Shown here: in pieces, positions 8,795 to 20,100 of the stretch
Layout: every line of letters starts with the position of its first letter
Position numbering within the stretch: position 1 is the stretch's first letter
Assembly (NCBI GenBank): GCA_947627255.1
Contig: CANQVI010000008.1
Span: 1-42,047, forward strand
Direction of reading: 5' to 3'
DNA: 42,047 nucleotides
DNA from: an uncultured Clostridia bacterium
Lineage (GTDB): Bacteria; Bacillota; Clostridia; TANB77; CAG-465
Position numbers and translations under genes: made by a program
The notes under the pieces: generated by a model
What the model was told of the DNA's origin: nothing
The model's input: the letters and a program-made list of their open reading frames with translations, nothing else
Databases searched by the model: none

Positions 8795-9310
8795 TTATAT
8801 GAATATAACGACAATTATTAGTCCTGATATTATTCCTATTGTCTTATATACTTTAGAGTTTTTTTCTTTTATACTACGAGCCTCTTTAATTTGATTTTTT
8901 ATTATTGCTATACCATTTTCTATAATATTATTTTGTGAACTTAAATCACTCCTTCCTAAATTTTTTAGTGTAGATATTATAATTTCTTTATCGTATTCTT
9001 CTAGTGCAGTTAAATTATTAATATTATTTGTTATACTGCTATCTATTTTATCTACTCCATAATTTGTCATATCTATAACTATAGCTCCTATTACATCTTT
9101 TAATTTGGAATTTAGTTTTTGCCTTGAAATTTCGTATGCATTTGGTAATGAATTTAGCATATATATCATTTCATTTTCTACCATTTTCAAAAAGGTTATC
9201 ATGTCTATTAAAATTTCTTCTCTTTCTTTTAAAGAACTTGCTAATTCTATCCCAATATATGAAGTTATGCACAATATAACTATTGAAATTACTATTTTAA
9301 TAAATATCAT
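8795..9310 (-). CDS. spoIIIAB: stage III sporulation protein AB
   Basis: SpoIIIAB resembles the GspF-type inner membrane platform of type II secretion. The 171 residues have a membrane helix at each end (about 2-20 and 155-170) and a helical cytoplasmic domain between them with L-K-E-R-E-E-I-L and L-G-R-S-D-L-S-S-Q. The start overlaps the spoIIIAA stop by four bases (ATGA), and its GGAGGTG ribosome binding site lies inside the end of spoIIIAA, implying coupled translation. Confidence 0.93.
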   Translation of the reverse strand: MIFIKIVISIVILCITSYIGIELASSLKEREEILIDMITFLKMVENEMIYMLNSLPNAYEISRQKLNSKLKDVIGAIVIDMTNYGVDKIDSSITNNINNLTALEEYDKEIIISTLKNLGRSDLSSQNNIIENGIAIIKNQIKEARSIKEKNSKVYKTIGIISGLIIVVIFI

Positions 9311-10218
9311 GCTACACCTCCTGCTACTGTTTCTAAGTCATATATTTTCTCAACAATACCCGGAACTTTACCATTAGATAAAATTATTATTTTTGAAAAT
9401 GTATTCATATCTAATAATTCTTTTATATCTTTGTTTTTATTTATATCTTGTAGTGAATCTCCATGCATGGTTACTATAACGCTTACTCCAGAAAGCATTG
9501 CTTCTTTTATTGCTACTATATCTTCCTTTTTTCCAATTTCATCAGTTGCTATCACATCTGGTGCCATTGACCTAATCATCATTTTCATTCCTGTAGATTT
9601 AGTTACATTGCTCATTATATCCGTTCTTACTCCAACATCTAAACTTGCTACCCCCTCATATACAGATGCGATTTCTCCTCTTTCATCTATTAGAGAAACA
9701 TTTTTTCCTTTAAAATTAAGACTTGGTACACCATTACTAATTTGCCTTACAATGTCCCTTATTAATGTAGTTTTGCCACATCCTGGTGGTGACACAATTA
9801 AAGTATTATTTACCTTCCCATTTTGAATTATACTTTTTAATACCTTATCTGCACATCCATATATTTGCTTTGCTACACGTATATTTAAGCTACAAATATT
9901 TTTAATATTCTTTATTTTTCCATCAACATATACAACCTCTCCACTTACTCCTATTCTATGACCGCCTCTAATTATAACGAACCCATTATTTATATCATTT
10001 TGTATAGCATATATTGAATTTTTAGATACATTCAACAATACATCTAAAATAGCATTTGTTGTAGCAATACAATCAAGCACTATTTCATTATTTATACATC
10101 TTAAAATAACTTTACATTTTGTACGTAATCTAATTTCGGTAATATTTTGACTGCAATTTAACCTTAATATCTCATTAGAAATATATTTAGGCAATACTTT
10201 TAAAATTTCATCTATCAT
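9307..10218 (-). CDS. spoIIIAA: stage III sporulation protein AA (secretion-type ATPase)
   Basis: SpoIIIAA is the cytoplasmic ATPase of the SpoIIIA channel, related to type II/IV secretion ATPases. Walker A S-P-P-G-C-G-K-T-T is at residues 143-151 and Walker B V-I-A-T-D-E-I-G in the C-terminal half; I-T-E-I-R-L-R near residue 30 and G-G-H-R-I-G-V-S-G-E at about 85-94 are further family marks. The 303 residues are normal. The gene heads the operon and has an AGAGGTG ribosome binding site. Expression in the mother cell under sigma-E is expected for the family, and a matching promoter is listed separately. Confidence 0.96.
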   Translation of the reverse strand: MIDEILKVLPKYISNEILRLNCSQNITEIRLRTKCKVILRCINNEIVLDCIATTNAILDVLLNVSKNSIYAIQNDINNGFVIIRGGHRIGVSGEVVYVDGKIKNIKNICSLNIRVAKQIYGCADKVLKSIIQNGKVNNTLIVSPPGCGKTTLIRDIVRQISNGVPSLNFKGKNVSLIDERGEIASVYEGVASLDVGVRTDIMSNVTKSTGMKMMIRSMAPDVIATDEIGKKEDIVAIKEAMLSGVSVIVTMHGDSLQDINKNKDIKELLDMNTFSKIIILSNGKVPGIVEKIYDLETVAGGVA

Positions 10219-10275
10219 ATAATCACCTCTTAGATATATCTAGTTATACTACTACAAAAAAGAATAATTTGTAGA

Positions 10276-10305
10276 AATGTACTATTTTTTAATAAAAAAA
10301 TATTC
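10276..10305 (-). promoter_or_regulatory. candidate sigma-E promoter of spoIIIA
   Basis: On the minus strand GAATATT matches the sigma-E -35 pattern. After 15 bases comes AGTACATT, which keeps the TACA core of the -10 pattern (five of eight positions). It lies about 60 bases before spoIIIAA. spoIIIA operons are known sigma-E targets; the exact site here is inference. Confidence 0.4.
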
Positions 10306-10331
10306 TAATTTTAGCAAAAAAATTCACATAT

Positions 10332-10360
10332 AAAAAGAGAGTTCATTTTGAACTCTCTTA
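10332..10360 (-). terminator. terminator of the copy 1 cargo operon
   Basis: On the minus strand, AAGAGAGTTCA and TGAACTCTCTT form an 11-bp stem with a 3-base loop and a T-rich tail, just after the stop of the 229-residue gene. Confidence 0.85.
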
Positions 10361-10367
10361 ATTATTT

Positions 10368-11057
10368 CTAATTAATAATATTAATTATATCGGATAATGA
10401 GGATATATTTTCCTCTGGTTGCACCTCTATAAATCCATAATTTGACATACTAATAAGTCTTCCATTATTGTTTTTTAGCATAATAATATATCTTTTATTT
10501 TTGTAAAAATTTTTTCCATATTTATAATTAAATACTATATATTTTTCTTTTTTATCTTTATCAGAAAGGTTATTTAATCCCATTTTTTCTATTTTTTCTT
10601 TTTTAGTATTAGACATCGTATTAATATAATCTTTTACTGTACAATACCCTCCATTAGAAAAAATATTTATTTCATTAGTTGACAAATTACCTTTTAGTAC
10701 AGTATCAACACATACTTTACCTGGTATACACGCATATCCATAATCTTCAAACATTATCCCATCATTTTTTTCTATAATTGTTCCAATAATTACCAAATCA
10801 GCATTATTATATATATCTTTAATATTAGACAAATCTATTTCACTTGCAGGATCAACAAATATTGTGGTATATATAGAATCTTTTGGAATATCTGAAGAGT
10901 AAATATCATTAAAATTATTTAAAACATTTGCATTTTGAATATTATAAATATTATTTGTTTTAAACTTTGAATATATTCCAAAACCAACTATAAATATAAT
11001 GAAAGTAAAAGATAAAATAAGTATAATAAATATTATTATATTTTTAATATTTTTCAT
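10368..11057 (-). CDS. membrane-anchored protein related to the anti-sigma ectodomain
   Basis: I do not recognise a named family. The 229-residue protein has one N-terminal membrane helix (about residues 7-29) and an extracytoplasmic domain. Within that domain, D-L-V-I-I-G-T-I-I-E, then V-L-K-G-N-L-S-T-N-E-I-N-I-F-S-N-G-G-Y, then V-K-D-Y-I, line up with the outer part of the anti-sigma protein encoded at 16281-17108 (V-Y-K-G-D-L-S-G-T-I-N-I-A-S-Y-G-G, then I-S-D-Y). The resemblance continues with a lysine-rich helical segment and a strand (Y-I-I-M-L versus Y-L-V-F-M). The gene follows the protease remnant by 18 bases with a GGAGG site and precedes a terminator. It could be a sensor, decoy or secreted target of the same signal. 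Confidence 0.6.
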   Translation of the reverse strand: MKNIKNIIIFIILILSFTFIIFIVGFGIYSKFKTNNIYNIQNANVLNNFNDIYSSDIPKDSIYTTIFVDPASEIDLSNIKDIYNNADLVIIGTIIEKNDGIMFEDYGYACIPGKVCVDTVLKGNLSTNEINIFSNGGYCTVKDYINTMSNTKKEKIEKMGLNNLSDKDKKEKYIVFNYKYGKNFYKNKRYIIMLKNNNGRLISMSNYGFIEVQPEENISSLSDIINIIN

Positions 11058-11075
11058 AAATTTACCTCCACTAAA

Positions 11076-11697
11076 TTAATTATTATATATAGCATTCAAG
11101 CCATTATGATCAGCTAAACTTGGCTTATAAACATTACATGGTGTATACCAACTGCACATTACACTATTTGAGTCCTCATTTGTTCCTAAACCAAAAGTAC
11201 TACCAAAAAAATGAGCTATATATCTTTGCATTCTATTATAATCATCCTTAGGATACATTTCAATAAATAATTCAACTTCTGTATAAACCCAATTTTGATC
11301 CCATGGATGTATTTCTGTAGCATTAGATGAATCTCCAACATAATAAAATATATTGCCTTTAATATATCCTTCTACATGAACGTAGCTTACATATATATCC
11401 ATATTAGAATTATAATAATCATATGAACGATATGCATATAAAGGATTCCACCCATAACCTGTATCTACCCAACTATTAACAGCATCTGTAATTAATGACA
11501 CCCATAAAGAAGCATTAGAATCATTTAATACACTATCTGTAATATAATAGTTAAAATGACTAATCCCGATATTCTAATCGATATGGACCAATTCTTGGTG
11601 AAACTTCATCAGCTGCATATACTGATGATATATTTAAAGAAAATACTACTATAAGTATAATTAATATTGCAAATAATTTTTTATTTAATTTATTCAT
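11076..11697 (-). pseudogene. matrixin-like secreted metalloprotease remnant, frameshifted
   Basis: From the ATG at 11697, GGAGG six bases upstream leads into a clear signal peptide ending V-Y-A-A. The frame stops at a TAG about 45 codons in. Dropping one base from the CCC run at 11565-11567 (GGG on the coding strand) restores a continuous reading of 206 residues: ...Y-R-I-S-H-F-N-Y-Y-I, then W-V-S-L-I-T-D-A-V-N-S-W. The body has the matrixin layout, but the zinc site reads A-H-F-F-G-S-T-F-G-L-G-T-N where HExxHxxGxxH is expected. The Met-turn-like N-S-V-M is kept. Both the glutamate base and two zinc histidines are therefore missing. A GTG at 11501 could start a 141-residue fragment but has no ribosome binding site. 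I read it as a decayed or catalytically dead protease; a sequencing error in the G run is possible. Confidence 0.7.
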
Positions 11698-11765
11698 AAT
11701 AAATTCCTCCTTAATAATATTATTTTTAATAAATTATTAATAGGGGGTGAACGAATTTGTTTCAT
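11694..11765 (-). CDS. leader ORF, copy 1 (frameshifted, 23 codons)
   Basis: A strong site, AAAGGAGG, lies seven bases before an ATG. The reading starts M-K-Q-I-R-S-P-P as in copy 2, but the base lost after CCCCC..CCT removes the Tyr and stop codons. Translation would run for 23 residues, across the downstream ribosome binding site (AGG AGG as Arg-Arg), and end in an ATGA overlap with the protease remnant. In copy 2 the same leader stops after nine residues. Confidence 0.5.
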   Translation of the reverse strand: MKQIRSPPINNLLKIILLRRNLL

Positions 11766-11827
11766 AATTAGAAACCTCCTTTCATAAATATTATTAAACA
11801 TTTATGTATGTGATTTTTCGCATAAAT

Positions 11828-11857
11828 ATTATATCATCGGTAATTACAATATGTCAA
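11828..11857 (-). promoter_or_regulatory. sigma-A promoter inside cassette copy 1
   Basis: On the minus strand a perfect TTGACA, 18-base spacer and perfect TATAAT point toward the leader ORF, leaving a 5' leader of about 55 bases. It is the best consensus promoter of the island. Confidence 0.8.
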
Positions 11858-11937
11858 CTTTTCTCTGATTTTTGTCTGATATTTCAGCAGTTGTAGTCTT
11901 TTTAGAGTATAGTAAAAGCTCTGATTTTTTATCAGAG
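11858..11937 (-). promoter_or_regulatory. operator-like repeats upstream of the sigma-A promoter (copy 1)
   Basis: Directly upstream of the TTGACA box, ATCAGACAAAA and ATCAGAGAAAA stand in tandem with an 11-base period (11858-11880). Further up, at 11919-11937, CTCTGAT and ATCAGAG form a palindrome with an A5 centre. Shared ATCAGA half-sites at one helical turn suggest binding by a dimeric regulator. The regulator is not identified. The same sites are in copy 2 at 15352-15431. Confidence 0.45.
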
Positions 11938-12097
11938 AAAATATCATTATTTTCTAATTTTAGAATTGTTTTATTCACCAATCATAATCATCAATAGTTA
12001 TTATCTTTGAATAAAATTTTTCTATTTTTACAACTTTACAATTACTTTCTTAGAAAGATATAATAAACAAAAAAATTCTTTTCAATTTCTACTATAT

Positions 12098-12129
12098 ATA
12101 TTGATAAAAAAATATGATATTTAGTTTCA
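12098..12129 (-). promoter_or_regulatory. ECF-type promoter, leftward, copy 1
   Basis: On the minus strand TGAAAC is followed after 19 bases by TCAATAT (equally, TGAAAC-N17-TATCAATAT). TGAAAC is the typical ECF -35 box. The same spacing and -10 pattern occur in both rightward arms. It points to the leader and cargo genes, with a 5' region of about 330 bases. Confidence 0.5.
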
Positions 12130-12204
12130 CTTTTTGTGTAAAAAATATTAATTTGTTATTTTTTATGATATACTTTTTATAGATTAAATATTTTTATTGA
12201 AATT

Positions 12205-12236
12205 TGAAACTTTTTTATAAAAAATATACTCTATAT
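12205..12236 (+). promoter_or_regulatory. ECF-type promoter of the 167-residue membrane protein
   Basis: TGAAAC, 19 bases, then TCTATAT, ending about 30 bases before the TTG start of the next gene. The two end boxes match those before the sigma gene although most of the spacer has diverged. Confidence 0.55.
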
Positions 12237-12267
12237 TAAAGAAGATATAATTTAACGAGGTGATAAA

Positions 12268-12771
12268 TTGATAAATAAGCTTATTAATAAAACTAATATA
12301 TTTATTACAATGAATGGTATATTTATGTTTTTGCTAATTTTTGTTGCCAAAACATTATTATATTCATTATATTTTAATCATCCAAGATTAGATGCTAGCG
12401 TATTTCAAGTTGGTATTTCAGCAATATTTATGATATTATATGTTTTAATCAGCATATATGGAGGGGAAATAATATTAAGTACATTGTTTTCATTAAAAAA
12501 TGAAATAAATAAAAATAATATATTTTTTTTATTTATATTTAATACGTTATTTTGGTTTTTACTTATATATTTTTCTTATGATGAATTTCAACCTTTCTAT
12601 GCCATAATGTATGTATTACAACAAATGCTTGGCTTCTTTATTGGGAGTCCATATACAAAATATTTAAAAAAGAAGATAAAAAATAACTTTTTAGTCACAA
12701 TGATATGTATACTCACTATGATTATGTCCATTATTATAATATTAAAATTTGATAAACTAATATATATATAA
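12268..12771 (+). CDS. polytopic membrane protein, unknown
   Basis: This 167-residue protein is mostly membrane: hydrophobic helices lie at about residues 13-33, 48-73, 84-103, 107-125 and 140-160, with a basic loop (K-Y-L-K-K-K-I-K-N) before the last. I do not recognise a family. Translation starts at a TTG preceded by GAGGTGAT. The gene stands alone between cassette copy 1 and a terminator shared with the converging 791-residue gene. Its promoter has the ECF pattern found before the sigma gene, so it is a likely regulon member. Small membrane proteins next to wall-active proteins can give protection or assist export, but nothing in this sequence shows either. Confidence 0.7.
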   Translation: MINKLINKTNIFITMNGIFMFLLIFVAKTLLYSLYFNHPRLDASVFQVGISAIFMILYVLISIYGGEIILSTLFSLKNEINKNNIFFLFIFNTLFWFLLIYFSYDEFQPFYAIMYVLQQMLGFFIGSPYTKYLKKKIKNNFLVTMICILTMIMSIIIILKFDKLIYI

Positions 12772-12776
12772 TATAA

Positions 12777-12811
12777 AAAACTAACCTAGATAAAAAATCT
12801 AGGTTAGTTTT
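12777..12811. terminator. bidirectional terminator between convergent genes
   Basis: AAACTAACCTAGAT and ATCTAGGTTAGTTT form a perfect stem of about 14 bp with an A-rich loop, flanked by A and T runs on both sides. Confidence 0.9.
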
Positions 12812-12812
12812 A

Positions 12813-15188
12813 CTATAAATTTATATTATAATTTTCTATAATATATTCACCAAATACATCACAGCATGCGTCTTTAGATTGATTACTAGGAATAGTTCCT
12901 ATATACATCAATATTAAATAATTTAATAAACCATCTGAAATAATTTGATTAGTCGATATAGATATTTCAGTTGAATTTAATGAACATTTTAAATCTTGAA
13001 TATAATATTGCATTCTATTTAAACTATTATTACTACTATAATATGCTTTCATAATTGAAGATAATAAATTTTGAACAACTTCATTGTCTTTCTCTTTTTT
13101 TAACTCATCACTTATTAGATTAGACATTGCTATCGCATCAGCATCAGAACATATATCTAAATATCCAAATTCTGATTTTGTTCCTAAAAGATGTTTTGCT
13201 ATATCATAGTGACTTGTCACTCTATCATAACGATTATCTACTTCACTCATTAATTTTGCTATATCTCCTGCCCATCCAAGCCAAAATGGTTCAAATATAA
13301 GTTCATCTTTTTTTAAATATCCAGACATAGTACAAGCTAAATGACCTAAATCTATGTATCCACCATAGTTATCTACAATTGCTCTATTTTCTTTTGCATA
13401 TTTGTATATGTTATCATATAAAGAATAATAGTTGCTTTTTATATAATTTACAAAATTGTCATCAGAATCTCCTAATACTACTTTAAAGTAATCTACATTA
13501 TAATTAAAGCTTCTAATAAAATCTAAAACTCCTAATACAATATTTTTAGTATTAATTAATTTATCGCTGGCAATACAATATTCTCTATAATAATTTTCTA
13601 AAAGCTCAATATTTGATAAAAATTCTAACATTCTAGGATATAATTCATCTACTGGTTTTATATCATACTCTTCTCCTTTTGAATCAGTTACTTTCAACAA
13701 TTTACCTGAATATGCATCTTTATCCAAATCCATATTTTCAGATTCACCATCAACATAAATGTTTTTAATCTCACTAAATTGATCTAATGCCCAATTACTT
13801 GGCATTTTAAACCCCATATTACCAGAAAATCCTGTTGACAAATCACTGACAAAGCAACTAGAAGCATAACCTAAATTCATAATTTGTGTACAAACATTTC
13901 TCGTTCCATATATTCCAACATAATAATTTATATCTATAGAGTTTGCTATAGCACTAAAGTATGGTATTATATACTGCTTAATCTCATCATCAGTAGGATC
14001 AGTATCAACAGCAAAATATATTACATTAGTTCCTGGTATATTTTTTTCTCTAGCAGATTTTACTGCTTTTTTAGCATCTAAAACCCCTTGAGTAGATGTA
14101 AAATATGATAAATCAGCTCCTGATTCTTGAAAAATCAAAAATAATTCTAAACCATTTTTTATTATTAACTCTGCTTCATTATATCTTAATTCTTTATAAT
14201 CTCCTCCTGTTAGATATCTACCAACAATTTTATATCCATTATCTTTTAAGTATTCAATTCTCTTTTGTGTCATTTCAAATCTTGTATCACATGCAACGCA
14301 TGATCTATCAGGATTACCTGTACTTATTAGTAGAGCCATCCATGTATCTTCATTACATATTCCTGTTTGATCAATACACATATTATATTGAAAAGCTTGA
14401 ATTGCAGATATAGTAATAATATCCCATGCAGTTGAATCAATATTTACAGTATAGCCATTGCATAGTAATGCTGTTTTTATTAATTTTATTGCTTCTTTTT
14501 CTGTATTTTGAGGTAATATACCATTACTCGGAATAATTGGTAATTTTGATCTTGTTCCATCTCCAAAGTTTCCTGTTGCTGCAGATACAGAAAAACCTTC
14601 AATAGCTTGAAGAACTTTAATCATTGATTTATTCATATCTCTACTATATAATCCATCACAAGGACTTAGTCCAATATAAGCTTCATACCCATAATTCATA
14701 TCTTGTTGAGCTTTTCTAATAGATGAATTTCCATTAGTTACTAATTCAAATTGAGTCATAGACATTAATGCCTTCATAACATTAAGTGTCACTGTAGAAG
14801 AAGTATCTTTGCATCCTGCTGCAGCCTTCATTTCAATAATTCCTTGAGCCGTTCCTCCATAAAAGTGTTTTGTAATCTCACTTGCCTCTGTAGAATACCC
14901 TTTACACCATAAAGCTCCCTGAATTATTCCATATATATTATCTTCATATTCAGACGGATACTCTTGTTCTTGTACACCATTAGGAAATCTTTCATTAAAT
15001 TTACTGGTAGTTCCATCACCAAAATTATTTGCTGTAGCTGTTATTCCTAATTCAATTTGTAATGCATGCAATAATGCATATATAGTTGTCCAACCAGTAA
15101 TACCTGTTTCAGGTATTATACTATATCCTAACTTTCCCTCATAATTTTTATTAAGCCATTTTTGAGTTTTCAAAACCATATTATCCAT
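12813..15188 (-). CDS. peptidoglycan-binding / DUF1906 glycoside-hydrolase-like protein
   Basis: The 791-residue protein has three parts. Residues 1-290 hold two copies of a unit of about 145 residues made of peptidoglycan-binding-like helices; both contain N-F-G-D-G-T (T/R)-S-K and an alanine/leucine-rich G-Y motif. Residues 299-495 match the DUF1906 (Rv2525c-like) TIM-barrel: G-Y-K-I-V-G-R-Y-L near 318, E-L-F-L-I-F-Q-E-S-G, V-I-Y-F-A-V-D-T-D and Y-Y-V-G-I-Y-G. Residues 505-791 are helical and unrecognised, with Y-I-D-L-G-H-L-A and F-W-L-G-W-A-G-D (611-642). There is no signal peptide or membrane helix, odd for a wall-directed protein; release by lysis or a non-Sec route would be needed. Translation starts at 15188 after AAGGGGGA. 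Expression comes from cassette copy 2 through the leader ORF. Substrate and activity are unproven. Confidence 0.75.
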   Translation of the reverse strand: MDNMVLKTQKWLNKNYEGKLGYSIIPETGITGWTTIYALLHALQIELGITATANNFGDGTTSKFNERFPNGVQEQEYPSEYEDNIYGIIQGALWCKGYSTEASEITKHFYGGTAQGIIEMKAAAGCKDTSSTVTLNVMKALMSMTQFELVTNGNSSIRKAQQDMNYGYEAYIGLSPCDGLYSRDMNKSMIKVLQAIEGFSVSAATGNFGDGTRSKLPIIPSNGILPQNTEKEAIKLIKTALLCNGYTVNIDSTAWDIITISAIQAFQYNMCIDQTGICNEDTWMALLISTGNPDRSCVACDTRFEMTQKRIEYLKDNGYKIVGRYLTGGDYKELRYNEAELIIKNGLELFLIFQESGADLSYFTSTQGVLDAKKAVKSAREKNIPGTNVIYFAVDTDPTDDEIKQYIIPYFSAIANSIDINYYVGIYGTRNVCTQIMNLGYASSCFVSDLSTGFSGNMGFKMPSNWALDQFSEIKNIYVDGESENMDLDKDAYSGKLLKVTDSKGEEYDIKPVDELYPRMLEFLSNIELLENYYREYCIASDKLINTKNIVLGVLDFIRSFNYNVDYFKVVLGDSDDNFVNYIKSNYYSLYDNIYKYAKENRAIVDNYGGYIDLGHLACTMSGYLKKDELIFEPFWLGWAGDIAKLMSEVDNRYDRVTSHYDIAKHLLGTKSEFGYLDICSDADAIAMSNLISDELKKEKDNEVVQNLLSSIMKAYYSSNNSLNRMQYYIQDLKCSLNSTEISISTNQIISDGLLNYLILMYIGTIPSNQSKDACCDVFGEYIIENYNINL

Positions 15189-15201
15189 AATATTTTTCCC
15201 C

Positions 15202-15232
15202 CTTAATAATTATTATTTTTAATAAATTATTA
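15202..15232 (-). promoter_or_regulatory. AT hairpin between leader stop and cargo ribosome binding site
   Basis: On the minus strand TTAATAATTTATTA begins at the leader stop codon and can pair, with one bulge, to TAATAATTATTAA just before the GGGGGA site of the 791-residue gene. A ribosome held at the leader end would cover the left arm and free the cargo start. Copy 1 keeps a shorter version. The stem is all A-T, so it is weak. Confidence 0.4.
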
Positions 15233-15259
15233 ATAAGGTGGTGAACGAATTTGTTTCAT
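15230..15259 (-). CDS. leader peptide MKQIRSPPY, copy 2
   Basis: A 9-codon ORF begins seven bases after a near-perfect AAAGGAGG site and ends in TAA, about 40 bases before the 791-residue gene. The ribosome binding site and the first eight codons are kept in copy 1. The ending Arg-Ser-Pro-Pro resembles the Arg-Ala-Pro-Pro/Arg-Ala-Gly-Pro arrest motifs of ApdA and SecM, in which a Pro-containing C-terminus stalls the ribosome. A regulatory uORF is more likely than a functional peptide, but a signalling peptide cannot be ruled out. Confidence 0.5.
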   Translation of the reverse strand: MKQIRSPPY

Positions 15260-15321
15260 AGTTAGAAACCTCCTTTCATAAATATTATTAAACATTTATG
15301 TATGTGATTTTTCGCATAAAT

Positions 15322-15351
15322 ATTATATCATCGGTAATTACAATATGTCAA
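15322..15351 (-). promoter_or_regulatory. sigma-A promoter inside cassette copy 2
   Basis: TTGACA, 18 bases and TATAAT on the minus strand, the same as in copy 1, directed at the intact leader and the 791-residue gene. Confidence 0.8.
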
Positions 15352-15591
15352 CTTTTCTCTGATTTTTGTCTGATATTTCAGCAGTTGTAGTCTTTTTAGA
15401 GTATAGTAAAAGCTCTGATTTTTTATCAGAGAAAATATCATTATTTTCTAATTTTAGAATTGTTTTATTCACCAATCATAATCATCAATAGTTATTATCT
15501 TTGAATAAAATTTTTCTATTTTTACAACTTTACAATTACTTTCTTAGAAAGATATAATAAACAAAAAAATTCTTTTCAATTTCTACTATAT

Positions 15592-15623
15592 ATATTGATA
15601 AAAAAATATGATATTTAGTTTCA
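15592..15623 (-). promoter_or_regulatory. ECF-type promoter, leftward, copy 2
   Basis: TGAAAC-N19-TCAATAT on the minus strand, the same as in copy 1, about 330 bases before the intact leader ORF. Confidence 0.5.
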
Positions 15624-15698
15624 CTTTTTGTGTAAAAAATATTAATTTGTTATTTTTTATGATATACTTTTTTATAAGTCAAATTTTTTATTAAAATT

Positions 15699-15730
15699 TG
15701 AAACTTTTTTACAATTTATTTTATCTATAT
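15699..15730 (+). promoter_or_regulatory. ECF-type autoregulatory promoter of the sigma gene
   Basis: TGAAAC, 19 bases, then TCTATAT, about 34 bases before the TTG start of the ECF sigma gene. ECF factors commonly transcribe their own operon from a TGAAAC-type -35 box. Confidence 0.55.
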
Positions 15731-15763
15731 AATTGACAGACCAATAATAAGGGGGTGTATATA

Positions 15764-16291
15764 TTGGATAACAATATAATAAAAAAGGCTATCAATAAGG
15801 ATAAAGATGCTTTTATAGAAATTATGAAATCTGTTGAAAAAAAGTTGTATATAATAGCTAAACTAAAATTAAATAACTATGAAGATATTAAAGATATTAT
15901 TCAAGAAACAATAGTTGAAAGCTATAAAAACATACAACAAGTAAGAGACCCAGAAAAATTTGAAAGTTGGATTACATCAATTCTTATTAACAAATGCAAT
16001 AAATTTTATAAAGACCAAAACAATTATAATAATATTCCATATGATGATAATGAGCCAGATATAGAAAATCATTTTAATATTATTGAAGATAAAATTGATT
16101 TTTTTAACTTGTTAAAATTATTAGGAAACTCTGAAAAAGAAATATTTACTTTATACTATGTAAATAATTACACTACTGCTGAAATATCTAGTATATTAAG
16201 CATTAATGAAAACACTATAAAAACAAAATTAAGAAGGTCTAGAGAAAAAATTAAAGAATATTTAGAAAGAGGTGATAAAAATGAATTTTAA
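15764..16291 (+). CDS. ECF RNA polymerase sigma factor
   Basis: This is an extracytoplasmic-function sigma-70 factor of 175 residues. Region 2 runs from D-K-D-A-F-I-E through D-I-I-Q-E-T-I-V-E-S-Y-K and F-E-S-W-I-T-S-I-L-I-N-K-C; region 4 has E-K-E-I-F-T-L-Y-Y-V-N-N-Y-T-T-A-E-I-S and the recognition helix N-E-N-T-I-K-T-K-L-R-R-S-R. I place the start at TTG 15764, six bases after GGGGGTG; a GTG at 15755 overlaps that site. The stop overlaps the anti-sigma start by 11 bases. An ECF-type promoter precedes it, so autoregulation is likely. No zinc-binding anti-sigma domain or protease partner is next to it. Confidence 0.95.
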   Translation: MDNNIIKKAINKDKDAFIEIMKSVEKKLYIIAKLKLNNYEDIKDIIQETIVESYKNIQQVRDPEKFESWITSILINKCNKFYKDQNNYNNIPYDDNEPDIENHFNIIEDKIDFFNLLKLLGNSEKEIFTLYYVNNYTTAEISSILSINENTIKTKLRRSREKIKEYLERGDKNEF

Positions 16292-17108
16292 TGATAATGA
16301 CATAGACAAAATTATAAAAGATAGTATAGAAAAAGTCGAACTACCAGAAGAAATTTTCAAAGAAGCATACAATAATTTAGAAAATAAGAAAAATAGTACA
16401 ATAATTTTCAAATTTTCAATTGGAATTGCCGCTGTAGTAATAGCAATATTTTTAGTAATATTAAGTATTAAAACTAACAATAAAGAAGATAACTATACAC
16501 CTGATATTAATGGATCAACAGAAGAAATACAATCAGAACTACCAATAGCTTCATATACTATAGATGAATCAGGAGATTCTTATCAGCCAATAATAAATCA
16601 TTTAAGTTCACCTTTAGGAATGACTTTAATTGAAGAAGACTCACAATTTGTAGGTATTGTAAAAGTCAAAAAAATATCAGGATATACTAATTATTTAAAA
16701 GAACAAGATATGTATAGTAGAACACCTTTTATAATATCTGAAGTTGAAATTGAAAAAGTATATAAAGGAGATTTAAGTGGTACAATAAACATTGCTTCTT
16801 ATGGTGGCGTAATATCAATAAGTGATTATGAAAAGGCATTATTAGATGGTCAGACTCTTCCTTCTCGTTATAAAGATTTTACAGAAGAAGAAAAGAAAAA
16901 TACATATGTAAATATTATAAATTCTATCACTATGAGTACACTAGAGCCAGAAGTTGGAAAATACTATTTAGTATTTATGAATTATAGTAAAAATTTAGAT
17001 TGCTATCAAGTACTAGATGATTTAATATATGAGTATGATATAGAAAATAATAAAACTAAAAATACATATACTAATGAATGGGAAAATTATGAATTTGGGA
17101 AAAAATAA
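16281..17108 (+). CDS. membrane anti-sigma factor-like protein
   Basis: The gene directly follows and overlaps the ECF sigma gene, the usual place for its anti-sigma factor. The 275 residues begin with a helical cytoplasmic segment of about 40 residues (N-D-I-D-K-I-I-K-D-S, then L-P-E-E-I-F-K-E-A-Y). One membrane helix follows (about 41-63), then an extracytoplasmic domain of about 210 residues. The zinc-finger HxxxCxxC motif of many anti-sigma proteins is absent. The outer domain contains V-Y-K-G-D-L-S-G-T-I-N-I-A-S-Y-G-G, matching the 229-residue protein at 10368-11057. I use the ATG at 16281 with AGAGGTG upstream; a GTG at 16272 is part of that site. Anti-sigma function is inferred from position and topology. 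Confidence 0.75.
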   Translation: MNFNDNDIDKIIKDSIEKVELPEEIFKEAYNNLENKKNSTIIFKFSIGIAAVVIAIFLVILSIKTNNKEDNYTPDINGSTEEIQSELPIASYTIDESGDSYQPIINHLSSPLGMTLIEEDSQFVGIVKVKKISGYTNYLKEQDMYSRTPFIISEVEIEKVYKGDLSGTINIASYGGVISISDYEKALLDGQTLPSRYKDFTEEEKKNTYVNIINSITMSTLEPEVGKYYLVFMNYSKNLDCYQVLDDLIYEYDIENNKTKNTYTNEWENYEFGKK

Positions 17109-17168
17109 AGAAGATTATTATAGAGGCTACTTCTTAGGTAGCTTCTATTTCATCTTCTTTATTTTTTA
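17104..17168. terminator. bidirectional terminator after the sigma operon
   Basis: AATAAAGAAGAT and ATCTTCTTTATT form an outer stem around a second inner hairpin (GGCTAC / GTAGCT), with a T run on the plus strand. It lies between the converging anti-sigma and SNF2 genes. Confidence 0.75.
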
Positions 17169-17171
17169 CTT

Positions 17172-20100
17172 TTATTCAAATAAATCTAACAATTCTTCTT
17201 GTGTCATATGAGATATAAATGTTTCACCAGATTTTATCACTGATTCTGTTAAATCTCTTTTCTTATCTTGTAGTTTTTGTATTTTTTCTTCAATACTATT
17301 TTCAGTAATTAACTTAAATACTTGAACATTATTTCTTTGACCTATTCTATAAGCTCTATCTGTTGCTTGATTTTGTGCAGATAAATTCCACCAAGGATCA
17401 AAATGTATTACCATATCTGCCCCTGTAAGGTTAAGTCCTGTTCCACCAGCTTTAAGTGATATTAAAAATACCTTTATATTATCATCTTTATTAAATTCAT
17501 CTACCATTTCAATTCTAGTATCTACTTTAGTTTGACCTGTAAGAATTGAATATTCTATTCCTCTTTTTTCAAGTTCAGGTACTAATATGTCAAACATAGA
17601 TGTAAACCCTGAAAATAGTAATATTTTATGTTTTGAAGCAATAGCTCCTTCAATTATATCTAAACATTGATTTAACTTTGAGCTTTCGCCAGAATAATTT
17701 TCTAAAAATAACTGTGGATGACAGCATATTTGTCTAAGTCTAGTTATTAATGACAATATTTTAAATTTACTTTTTTCAAATCCATTAGACTCAATTTCTT
17801 GTCTCATCTTAACTTTAGCAAGTGCTAAATATGAATTATATAGTTTTTGTTGTTCATCATCCATTTTACTATACATTATTTGCTCTGTCTTATCTGGTAA
17901 TTCTTTTAATACGTCCTTTTTAATACGTCTTAATACAAATGGTGCAACTAATTTTTGTAGTCTTTCCATAGTCAAATTGTCATTTTCTTTTATTATTGCT
18001 GTTTCAAATTCATCTTTAAATTTCTTATATGTGTATAAATAGCCTGGCATAATAAAATCAAAAATTGACCAAAGCTCTGCTAAAGAATTTTCAATAGGTG
18101 TTCCTGTAAGAGCAAATCTTACCTCACTTTTTAAATCTTTTAATGCTTTTGCATTTTTAGTATTATTATTTTTTATATATTGAGCTTCATCAGCAATAAC
18201 ATATTTGAATTTAAAGTTTTTGTATTTTTCTATATCACGTTTTAATAAATCATACGAAGTAATTACAACATCATAATTATTTATTTGACTTATTAAATTT
18301 TCTCTTTGATCAGCATTACCTGAAATTATAAGTGTTCTTATCTCATTAGAAAATCTTTTTATTTCCTTTTCCCAGTTTATATATAAAGAGCTTGGACATA
18401 CAACTATAGATGTTTTTTCAGTTGATTTTTTTTCATCTAATAAAAGAGCAATTATTTGAATAGTTTTTCCAAGTCCCATATCATCTGCAAGTATACCACC
18501 AAATCCATATTTTTCTAATGTTTTAAGCCAATTAAATCCTGTCTTTTGATATTCTCTTAATACACCTTTTAATTCCTGTGGCTCTTCAAATTTAACATCT
18601 TCTATATTCTTTATATTTCTAACTATCTCTTTAAAATTATTATCTAAATTTATAGTTATATCTGAATTATTAATTTTAGCTAAATTATCTAAATATAATG
18701 CTCTATATTTAGGAATATCTACTTTTCCAGATACAATATCTTTTTCTGTTATATTCAAAGTCTTAGCTAAATTAACTAAAGTTCCTATTCCATTAGAATC
18801 AATATTAATAAATGTTCCATTTTTTAATCTATAATATTTCTTTCTTAGTTTATATCTTTTAAATATATCTTTAAGTTCATTTTCATCCAGTCCTAATTCT
18901 TTAAAGTCTATTTCTAAGAAGTTATTTTCTATTCTAACACCCATATTAAATGTTTTTTGGCTTATTATTTGCCTATTTTTAAGTTTATCTGTAACTAGTA
19001 CTTCAAACTTTTCCATAAACTTATCTATACCTTCTGTTAAGAAAGTATAAATATCATCTTCATTTGAAAGATATATAATATGCTTCTTAAAGTTAATTAC
19101 AAAATTATACATCTTAAATAATTCCTTTGCTCTAGCTTCTTCAATAATGTTTCTATTACAAGAAACTTCTAAGTCTTTATCAAAAGGATTAAATTCATCA
19201 TTACCATAGCAAAATTTTACTTCTGCTATTATATTTCCCTTATTATCTATATCTAAAAATAGCTTTGTTCCTAATTTTTCTGCTTTATATTTTTCTAATA
19301 TTCCGTTTTCAATTATTAAATTTGTACTATCTTTTAAAGCTGGTATTACATACTCACAAAAACTAGTTGCACTATTTTTAGAAATAGTTATTTTTCCTTC
19401 TGGGTCTTCTGATAACTTTTCAAGTAATGGAAGTACCTTTGTTTTAAATTCATTTGAACATCTATGCAATTTATCCTTATATAGTATATATGAATAATCT
19501 TGCCCTTCAAATACATAGTATTTATCGCTATTACTAATTACATATAGTCCCTTTTCTTGTGCGTCAATTATTTCTATATCAAAAGAAGGGTCGCTATTTT
19601 CCAAAGTCACTACTCCATATGCTTTTTCATAATCATAGTTTTCTATTGATAATTTTTGCCCGTCTAATATATCAAAAATTTCATCTAATAATGAATATTT
19701 TAATTTAAAATTTGTTCTATATCTCTTATTTACAGTAAAATGATAAGTTCCTAATTTAGAAAATTCGTTATATTCTAATGCTTTAGCAACTATAAGTTTA
19801 GCAAGTGGCTTAGAATCTTTTTCAAATGATTCTATAGAATGTTTAAATTCTAACTCCTTACCATATTTGCATATATTTCCTTTTTGTACATCTTCACTAA
19901 ATTTGTACAAATCTCTTAATATATACATTCTATCTTTTCCAACTTTAAATGATATTTCTAAATCCTTTTTCATTTCATCTACAAGATGGAGATTTGCCTC
20001 TATTCTTACAGTTTCTTTATCTATATTTCTATTTAATTCGAGATTTTCATAATAGGCCATAAGTCCATTATTCTCTCTTTGTTCATTTATTTTATCTTTA

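Follow-up and report, generated by a model that had tools for sequence, protein, structure and literature searches.

Envelope stress systems governed by extracytoplasmic function (ECF) sigma factors of the Bacillus subtilis SigW/SigM type have a common layout: an autoregulated sigma factor, an overlapping gene for a membrane anti-sigma, a -35 element of the TGAAAC type and a regulon linked to the cell envelope. A related sigma pair of Bacteroidales is induced by the toxin BcpT and protects against antibacterial proteins (PMC9308784). A similar layout, with an anti-sigma-like gene in the place of the anti-sigma, is found at positions 10,368 to 17,108 of a contig from an uncultured Clostridia bacterium (GenBank assembly GCA_947627255.1, contig CANQVI010000008.1; G000:C8 in our numbering), which is the subject of this study. 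The window, i.e. the entire contig of 42,047 nucleotides, has a G+C content of 25.5% and belongs to an AT-rich draft genome of 1.4 Mb. Unlike in the described systems, the back-to-back promoter pair of the window is duplicated as a cassette, the regulon is almost restricted to a single locus and the -10 element reads ATC/CTC-TATAT instead of CGTC. We propose, with a confidence that is about evenly balanced, that the locus is an antagonism or defence island that arose by fusion of two modules, an ECF promoter module and a leader/cargo module, and that their junction was then duplicated.

The cargo of the island has its closest described counterpart in bacteriocin 41 of Enterococcus faecalis (bacL1-bacL2-bacA-bacI, plasmids pMG2200/pYI14), with which it shares a protein of BacA-like architecture that has no signal peptide and an adjacent gene encoding four transmembrane (TM) segments. 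The two differ in that no bacL1-like lysin was seen at the window locus, the neighbouring protein is not homologous to BacI, and the regulator is an ECF sigma factor rather than BacL2. BacA copies of Enterococcus have no leader and one has a LexA-like box; such a box (CGAACGTATGTTCG) lies immediately upstream of the BacA-like gene that E. faecium carries on plasmids (L222, 2700-2748; L-numbered entries are DNA stretches from genomes, plasmids or viral contigs). A dedicated ECF-like sigma factor that is locally tied to a bacteriocin or toxin and to a small membrane protein is a feature of the UviA-UviB-bacteriocin module of Clostridium perfringens and of TcdR-type sigma factors. To our knowledge, these sigma factors operate without an anti-sigma partner of the kind present in the window, and the small membrane protein of the window looks more like an immunity protein than like a holin.

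Upstream of each cargo gene is a very short leader open reading frame (ORF) with a core of Arg, a small residue and Pro, as in the RAPP-like arrest peptides (SecM with RAGP, ApdA/ApdP with RAPP and ApcA with RAPG), which are likewise encoded by upstream ORFs. Random screens have selected RxPP with G, A, S or P at x, and RSPP, the form present in the window, is a documented arrest-permissive motif; the Arg is irreplaceable and Ser partly permissive, and RAPP/RGPP upstream ORFs were reported to be absent from many Bacillota (PMC12992588). Unlike these peptides, the leaders described here have no fixed second Pro and do not precede secA, secDF or yidC. Antibiotic-sensing leaders (ermC, ermB, toiL) are also very short ORFs just before the regulated gene; here, no conserved hairpin switch was found and the downstream genes encode secreted or antagonism proteins rather than resistance proteins.

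The base systems themselves are of known kinds; new are the BacA-like identity of the cargo, the conserved family of micro-leaders and its association with Spo0A-like regulators. Of these, the leaders most deserve further attention. Should they stall ribosomes, no RAPP-like arrest peptide known to us would come near them in shortness; the Arg-small-Pro core would work almost alone, which bears on the length of nascent chain that arrest needs, and the leaders would depart from the reported rule that many Bacillota have no RAPP/RGPP upstream ORFs. For gut bacteria that are uncultured, the ECF half offers a small and clean model of a self-contained envelope-stress regulon wired to a bacteriocin-like protein and to one that probably confers immunity.

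A duplicated cassette and a probable local ECF regulon

The regulatory core of the locus consists of the following features:

11690-12220, unstranded: cassette copy A, bidirectional regulatory region (97% identity to copy B over 531 nt)
15181-15714, unstranded: cassette copy B, bidirectional regulatory region (alignment to copy A)
12097-12129, minus strand: leftward ECF-type promoter of copy A, TGAAAC-N18-ATC-AATATA (motif match)
12205-12237, plus strand: rightward ECF-type promoter of copy A, to the membrane protein, TGAAAC-N18-CTC-TATATT (motif match)
15591-15623, minus strand: leftward ECF-type promoter of copy B (motif match)
15699-15731, plus strand: rightward ECF-type promoter of copy B, to the sigma operon (kept before the orthologous sigma in G002, G009 and G012)
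15764-16291, plus strand: ECF sigma factor, regions 2 and 4 (Pfam PF04542, PF08281 and PF04545 above cut-off)
16281-17108, plus strand: anti-sigma-like protein with one TM segment (about residues 48-66 of P0002) and an ectodomain of about 210 amino acids; overlaps the sigma gene

Two nearly identical cassettes in direct orientation had been noted in the original prediction, which was made from the DNA letters of the window, and the alignment confirms them: the cores (11742-12173 and 15236-15667) have only 2 mismatches in 432 nt (430/432 identical), while the similarity fades towards both repeat ends. These mismatched edges make an assembly artefact less likely. On the plus strand, each cassette is composed, in this order, of the cargo start (minus strand), the micro-ORF (minus strand), a sigma-A promoter, the leftward ECF site and the rightward ECF site. 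The 1.4-Mb genome contains the cassette in these two copies only, a search with the cassette DNA in 95 relatives returned short AT-rich matches and no full-length one, and an Rfam scan of positions 10200-17200 matched no family. The sigma factor has regions 2 and 4 only and likely starts with TTG at 15764, as judged by comparison with its counterpart in G012 (G-numbered genomes are relatives); the anti-sigma-like ORF likely starts with ATG at 16281, and the gene is conserved alongside sigma; the pair is as predicted.

The pattern TGAAAC-N18-nTC occurs five times in the window, and four of these matches are inside the cassettes (two leftward, two rightward), so that, as predicted, all four cassette arms carry it; the number expected by chance is 0.74 per window on average, and five were reached in 1 of 100 shuffles. 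The stricter pattern TGAAAC-N17/18-NTC-WNTATA has just four matches in the entire genome, three in the cassettes and one preceding a gene that itself lies upstream of an ECF sigma paralogue; the reversed control has none. Orthologues of the sigma factor in G012, G009 and G002 are 61-68% identical, and in all three genomes TGAAAC is found at the same position ahead of the sigma gene, with TATC, CATC or a similar sequence and then TATAT downstream of it.

The two-sided arrangement is also conserved. The divergent ECF sites are 76 nt apart in the window cassettes and 77 nt apart in G002, where one site faces the sigma operon and the other a Spo0A-like response regulator. In G009 the distance is 41 nt: one site faces sigma and the other four consecutive genes for small membrane proteins, including two homologues of the membrane protein encoded at 12268-12771 of the window, and three of the four strict matches of that genome are located within 2.7 kb at the sigma locus. 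G010, which has no close sigma orthologue, has three strict matches and these are scattered. With the site before sigma's own gene kept in three relatives and the motif nearly confined to the locus, the predicted self-amplifying circuit, a small and local ECF regulon with two-sided promoters in which sigma would transcribe its own gene, is well supported by these comparisons. A row of four small multi-TM proteins with an ECF site divergent from sigma, and with no BacA-like gene beside it, was seen in L078 (5883-7549, minus strand), possibly an orphan immunity array.

Leader family and cargo

The minus-strand arms of the cassettes lead into leader and cargo genes, and the cargo gene of copy B is convergent with a small membrane protein gene:

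11694-11765, minus strand: leader ORF A, MKQIRSPPINNLLKIILLRRNLL (stop overlaps the next start as ATGA; motif kept in relatives)
15230-15259, minus strand: leader ORF B, MKQIRSPPY (motif kept in relatives)
11828-11857, minus strand: sigma-A promoter of leader A, TTGACA-N18-TATAAT (12/12 consensus match)
15322-15351, minus strand: sigma-A promoter of leader B, TTGACA-N18-TATAAT (12/12 consensus match)
12813-15188, minus strand: 791-residue BacA-like protein (PG_binding_1 and DUF1906 glycoside-hydrolase-like, Pfam; full-length match to phrog_15213), no signal peptide
12268-12771, plus strand: 167-residue membrane protein with four TM segments, immunity-like candidate, convergent with the BacA-like gene
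12777-12811, unstranded: terminator-like hairpin of 15 pairs between the two convergent genes

Leaders were searched for in 385 genomes of the order as a Shine-Dalgarno sequence with a start codon and I-R-[SA]-P, with the permuted motif I-[SA]-R-P as control. Besides those of the window, the in-frame cases of this search were MIRIRSPCC, MQLIRAPNFYI, MYYIRSPNLSY, MLKNIRAP..., MKQIRSPN, MNYIRAPLKKKLY, MSWIRAPCKNLCY, MVLIRSPCFKE and MLSIRSPCIIN. Within the family of the window (36 genomes), 11 in-frame leaders were found in seven genomes and none with the permuted motif. A twelfth leader, in G018, is an RGP variant (MRLVRGPTF), and the motif over all twelve is [IV]-R-[SAG]-P, with the Arg-small-Pro core present in each. 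When the 12 leader regions are aligned, the start codon and the motif codons are the only invariant positions; the Arg is encoded by CGT, CGG, AGA or AGG, and an invariant motif with differing Arg codons indicates that selection acts on the peptide. The distance from the leader start to the start of the next gene is 65-89 nt. The gene behind the leader nearly always encodes a signal peptide, with the exceptions of the BacA-like proteins of the window and G002.

Outside the family the signal is harder to follow: in a search of the phylum with a degenerate leader pattern, chance matches swamp it in GC-richer genomes, and MK[QHKN]IR[SA]P matched 56 DNA stretches across 84,980 species, mostly by chance or within long genes, in addition to G010's own record and a few candidates. 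IR[SA]P micro-ORFs were seen in other genomes of the order, single or in tandem, behind sigma-A promoters and, as judged by eye, before terminator-like hairpins (L127 4860-5100, L128 4470-4860, L126 5080-5200 and L123 4700-4900, all on the minus strand); the gene downstream of them is fba, for an aldolase, in three genomes and leuS in one, but the micro-ORFs apparently form stand-alone transcripts. Repeated MKHIRAPAR[QR]L micro-ORFs occur in Hornefia butyriciproducens and on a viral contig (L180 685 and 3320, L159 344, L217), two of them immediately preceding a phage terminase-like gene.

The 791-residue cargo, described as a wall-type protein in the original prediction, is more exactly a BacA-like one. 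Its residues 1-496 are 39% identical to a 726-residue protein that follows bacL2 and a holin gene on pMG2200, and its C-terminal third is unaligned; from the published gene order we take this counterpart to be BacA, which is a cofactor of bacteriocin 41 (PMC9951850). Matches to the cargo are present in 545 plasmid records, chiefly from Enterococcus and lactobacilli, and viral contigs contain no close relative. A gene for a four-TM protein is convergent to the BacA-like gene in both the window and G002, and the gene after BacA in bacteriocin 41 likewise encodes four TM segments. The protein of the window is not a BacI homologue, as there is no sequence similarity, and a holin reading found no family match; immunity-like is the assignment that we prefer, from gene position alone. 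We consequently call the cargo BacA-like and its neighbour immunity-like, and not BacA and BacI.

The original prediction had one sigma factor driving all arms, including the cargo. This is supported for the ECF circuit and only in part for the whole locus, since the modules occur separately and the leaders have their own sigma-A promoters, each a perfect one that separates the leader from the leftward ECF site. Leader/cargo modules with no sigma gene are found in G010, G008, G013, G029 and G033, and ECF sigma is also found without a leader/cargo module. Judged by this distribution, the leader/cargo half is a module separate from the ECF half. The prediction had named cassettes in relatives without an ECF sigma gene as evidence against it; the leader half does occur in this way, whereas no such case was found for the ECF half.

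A different regulator may be associated with the leaders. Close paralogues of the Spo0A-like regulator are present in G002, G008, G010, G024 and G033, overlapping with the leader-bearing genomes (P = 0.003). Up to 200 nt upstream of leaders, there are seven paired TTCC boxes (0.40 expected) and three exact TTGTCGAA 0A-type boxes (0.09 expected); the motifs were picked post hoc and all these P values and expectations are only indicative. The window cassettes have neither TTCC pairs nor a 0A-type box. A clade of Spo0A-like response regulators (receiver and Spo0A_C) was seen adjoining or diverging from leader-bearing genes in L041 (6700-7422), L042 (6818-7576) and L301 (889-1551).

Proposed function and alternatives

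Both proposed modules can be recognised in the sequence: module 1 is the back-to-back pair of ECF promoters, which faces the sigma/anti-sigma genes in one direction and a further gene in the opposite one, and module 2 comprises the sigma-A promoter, the [IV]-R-[SAG]-P micro-leader and the cargo gene. After fusion, the island may work as follows. Cargo transcripts would start at a basal level from sigma-A promoters, in relatives with the addition of a Spo0A-type regulator. The leader would hold a ribosome at R-S-P close to the 5' end and thereby set cargo translation or shield the mRNA, and the cargo would serve as a BacA-like, peptidoglycan-binding bacteriocin component. The anti-sigma ectodomain would sense an attack on the envelope by the cell's own weapon or that of a neighbour; once freed, sigma would increase transcription of its own operon as well as of the gene for the four-TM immunity-like protein, and possibly add a second transcript with a long leader to the cargo arms.

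Several observations weigh against this proposal. The anti-sigma-like protein has no Pfam anti-sigma domain; there is no BacL1-like lysin among the ORFs of the island, a search that did not extend to the whole genome; and no homology of the four-TM protein was detected to the BacI protein of pMG2200 or, pairwise, to mem124 of G002. On the leader side, the second Pro is absent from 10 of the 12 leaders (PP is restricted to the two window leaders, the others have C, N, T or L), and published RAPP-like arrest peptides are longer and have an N-terminal localisation signal, in contrast to these leaders, which have no signal and, at 8-28 residues, fall short of the tunnel exit. G002, the sole relative with both modules, has no TGAAAC site before its leaders. 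Finally, the duplication of the cassette is known from a single draft genome.

In the single regulon that was first proposed, the ECF sigma would be the main driver of four arms including both cargo arms, and the leader a translational gate behind it. TGAAAC-N18-nTC on all four arms is consistent with this, as is the resemblance of the leftward site to the one before the Spo0A-like gene of G002; the 12/12 sigma-A promoters between the left ECF sites and the leaders, the modules that lack sigma and the leaders of G002 make it unlikely. Very unlikely, in our view, is an ordinary ECF stress operon beside unrelated surface-protein genes, with a recent duplication by chance and leaders that are non-functional short ORFs: the duplication is indeed unique to the window genome and one cargo gene is frameshifted, but the leader motif is kept before many different genes while the DNA diverges, the permuted control gave 0 against 11 in the family, and ECF sites are kept in three relatives.

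The remaining alternatives concern the leader, for which we infer ribosome stalling from the conserved peptide. It could be an attenuator of the ermC/cat type, in which a stalled ribosome opens a hairpin over the Shine-Dalgarno site of the cargo upon induction by a ribosome-targeting antibiotic or translation stress. In both window copies the Pro codons of the leader do pair with this site, and masking of the stretch under a stalled ribosome makes the site more accessible, in one copy from 0.22 to 0.90 and in the other from 0.15 to 0.65. However, this pairing was not seen in relatives, where matched leaders and sites pair no better than mismatched ones (permutation p = 0.85), a comparison to which the search for covarying RNA structure was limited; the alignment conserves the peptide motif only and the downstream genes are not resistance genes. 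We therefore reject hairpin attenuation as a general mechanism and regard it as quite improbable for the window leaders. The predicted gating of cargo by the leader is plausible and gains support from the conserved peptide motif; its classical hairpin form is not conserved in relatives. Alternatively, the leader could be a 5' protector of the mRNA: a stalled or tightly bound ribosome would block 5'-3' decay, and the cargo would initiate independently at a fixed distance. The strong Shine-Dalgarno site, the near-constant spacing of 65-89 nt with space for a second ribosome and the lack of a conserved hairpin are in line with this, and protection of the mRNA 5' end or a pacing role fits the fixed spacing better than hairpin opening. 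Related ORFs that carry the motif in tandem in a different family of the order speak against it: these appear to be separate short units with their own promoter and terminator, at odds with protection of a gene downstream, and we consider the protector improbable. No one model covers both these ORFs and the leaders.

A broader suggestion, which we make tentatively and with somewhat less than even confidence, is that the micro-ORFs encode arrest peptides of a new, ultra-short class, in which [IV]-R-[SAG]-P lies among the first ~8 codons and acts near the peptidyl-transferase centre with no need of a long nascent chain. Across the order, genes for secreted and antagonism proteins would have such a leader as their standard 5' control element, often under Spo0A-type regulators, and in the window the element would have been joined to a bidirectional ECF promoter and then duplicated, letting one sigma factor override or add to expression at two cargo operons.

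Anchored protein, M10-like gene and left border

The leftward arm of cassette A leads into two further genes:

11076-11697, minus strand: secreted M10/matrixin-like gene (signal peptide in frame 11560-11697, remainder in another frame; zinc motif lost)
10368-11057, minus strand: 229-residue membrane-anchored protein, ectodomain homologous to that of the anti-sigma-like protein (E 7e-4; hhalign probability 99.5%)

The first had been predicted to be a protease remnant. It is more precisely an M10/matrixin-like gene with a 1-nt frameshift after 11560 (window 11560-11573), which could be a real pseudogene or an error of the draft assembly; the G002 homologue is unbroken, and the zinc motif is absent in both. 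HExxH is kept in 18 of the 20 M10-like homologues checked, the two losers being those of the window and G002. Given the broken frame and the lost zinc motif, we reject an active protease role for the window gene. By comparison of coordinates, 15 of the 20 M10-like genes in the genus are located within ~5 kb of an ECF sigma gene. The pairing of an anchored protein with an anti-sigma-type ectodomain recurs at further ECF loci of the same genome, beside M10-like secreted metalloproteases. It is reasonable to suppose that a protease or an ectodomain decoy may act on the anti-sigma.

M10/matrixin-like neighbours of sigma/anti-sigma pairs were also seen in L080 (5851-6444), L081 (6957-7544) and others; in L081 they lie beside an anchored protein whose ectodomain is of the anti-sigma type. 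The left border of the island is spoIIIAA (9307-10218 of the window), and the genome, although 1.4 Mb in size, thus carries a sporulation operon at least in part.

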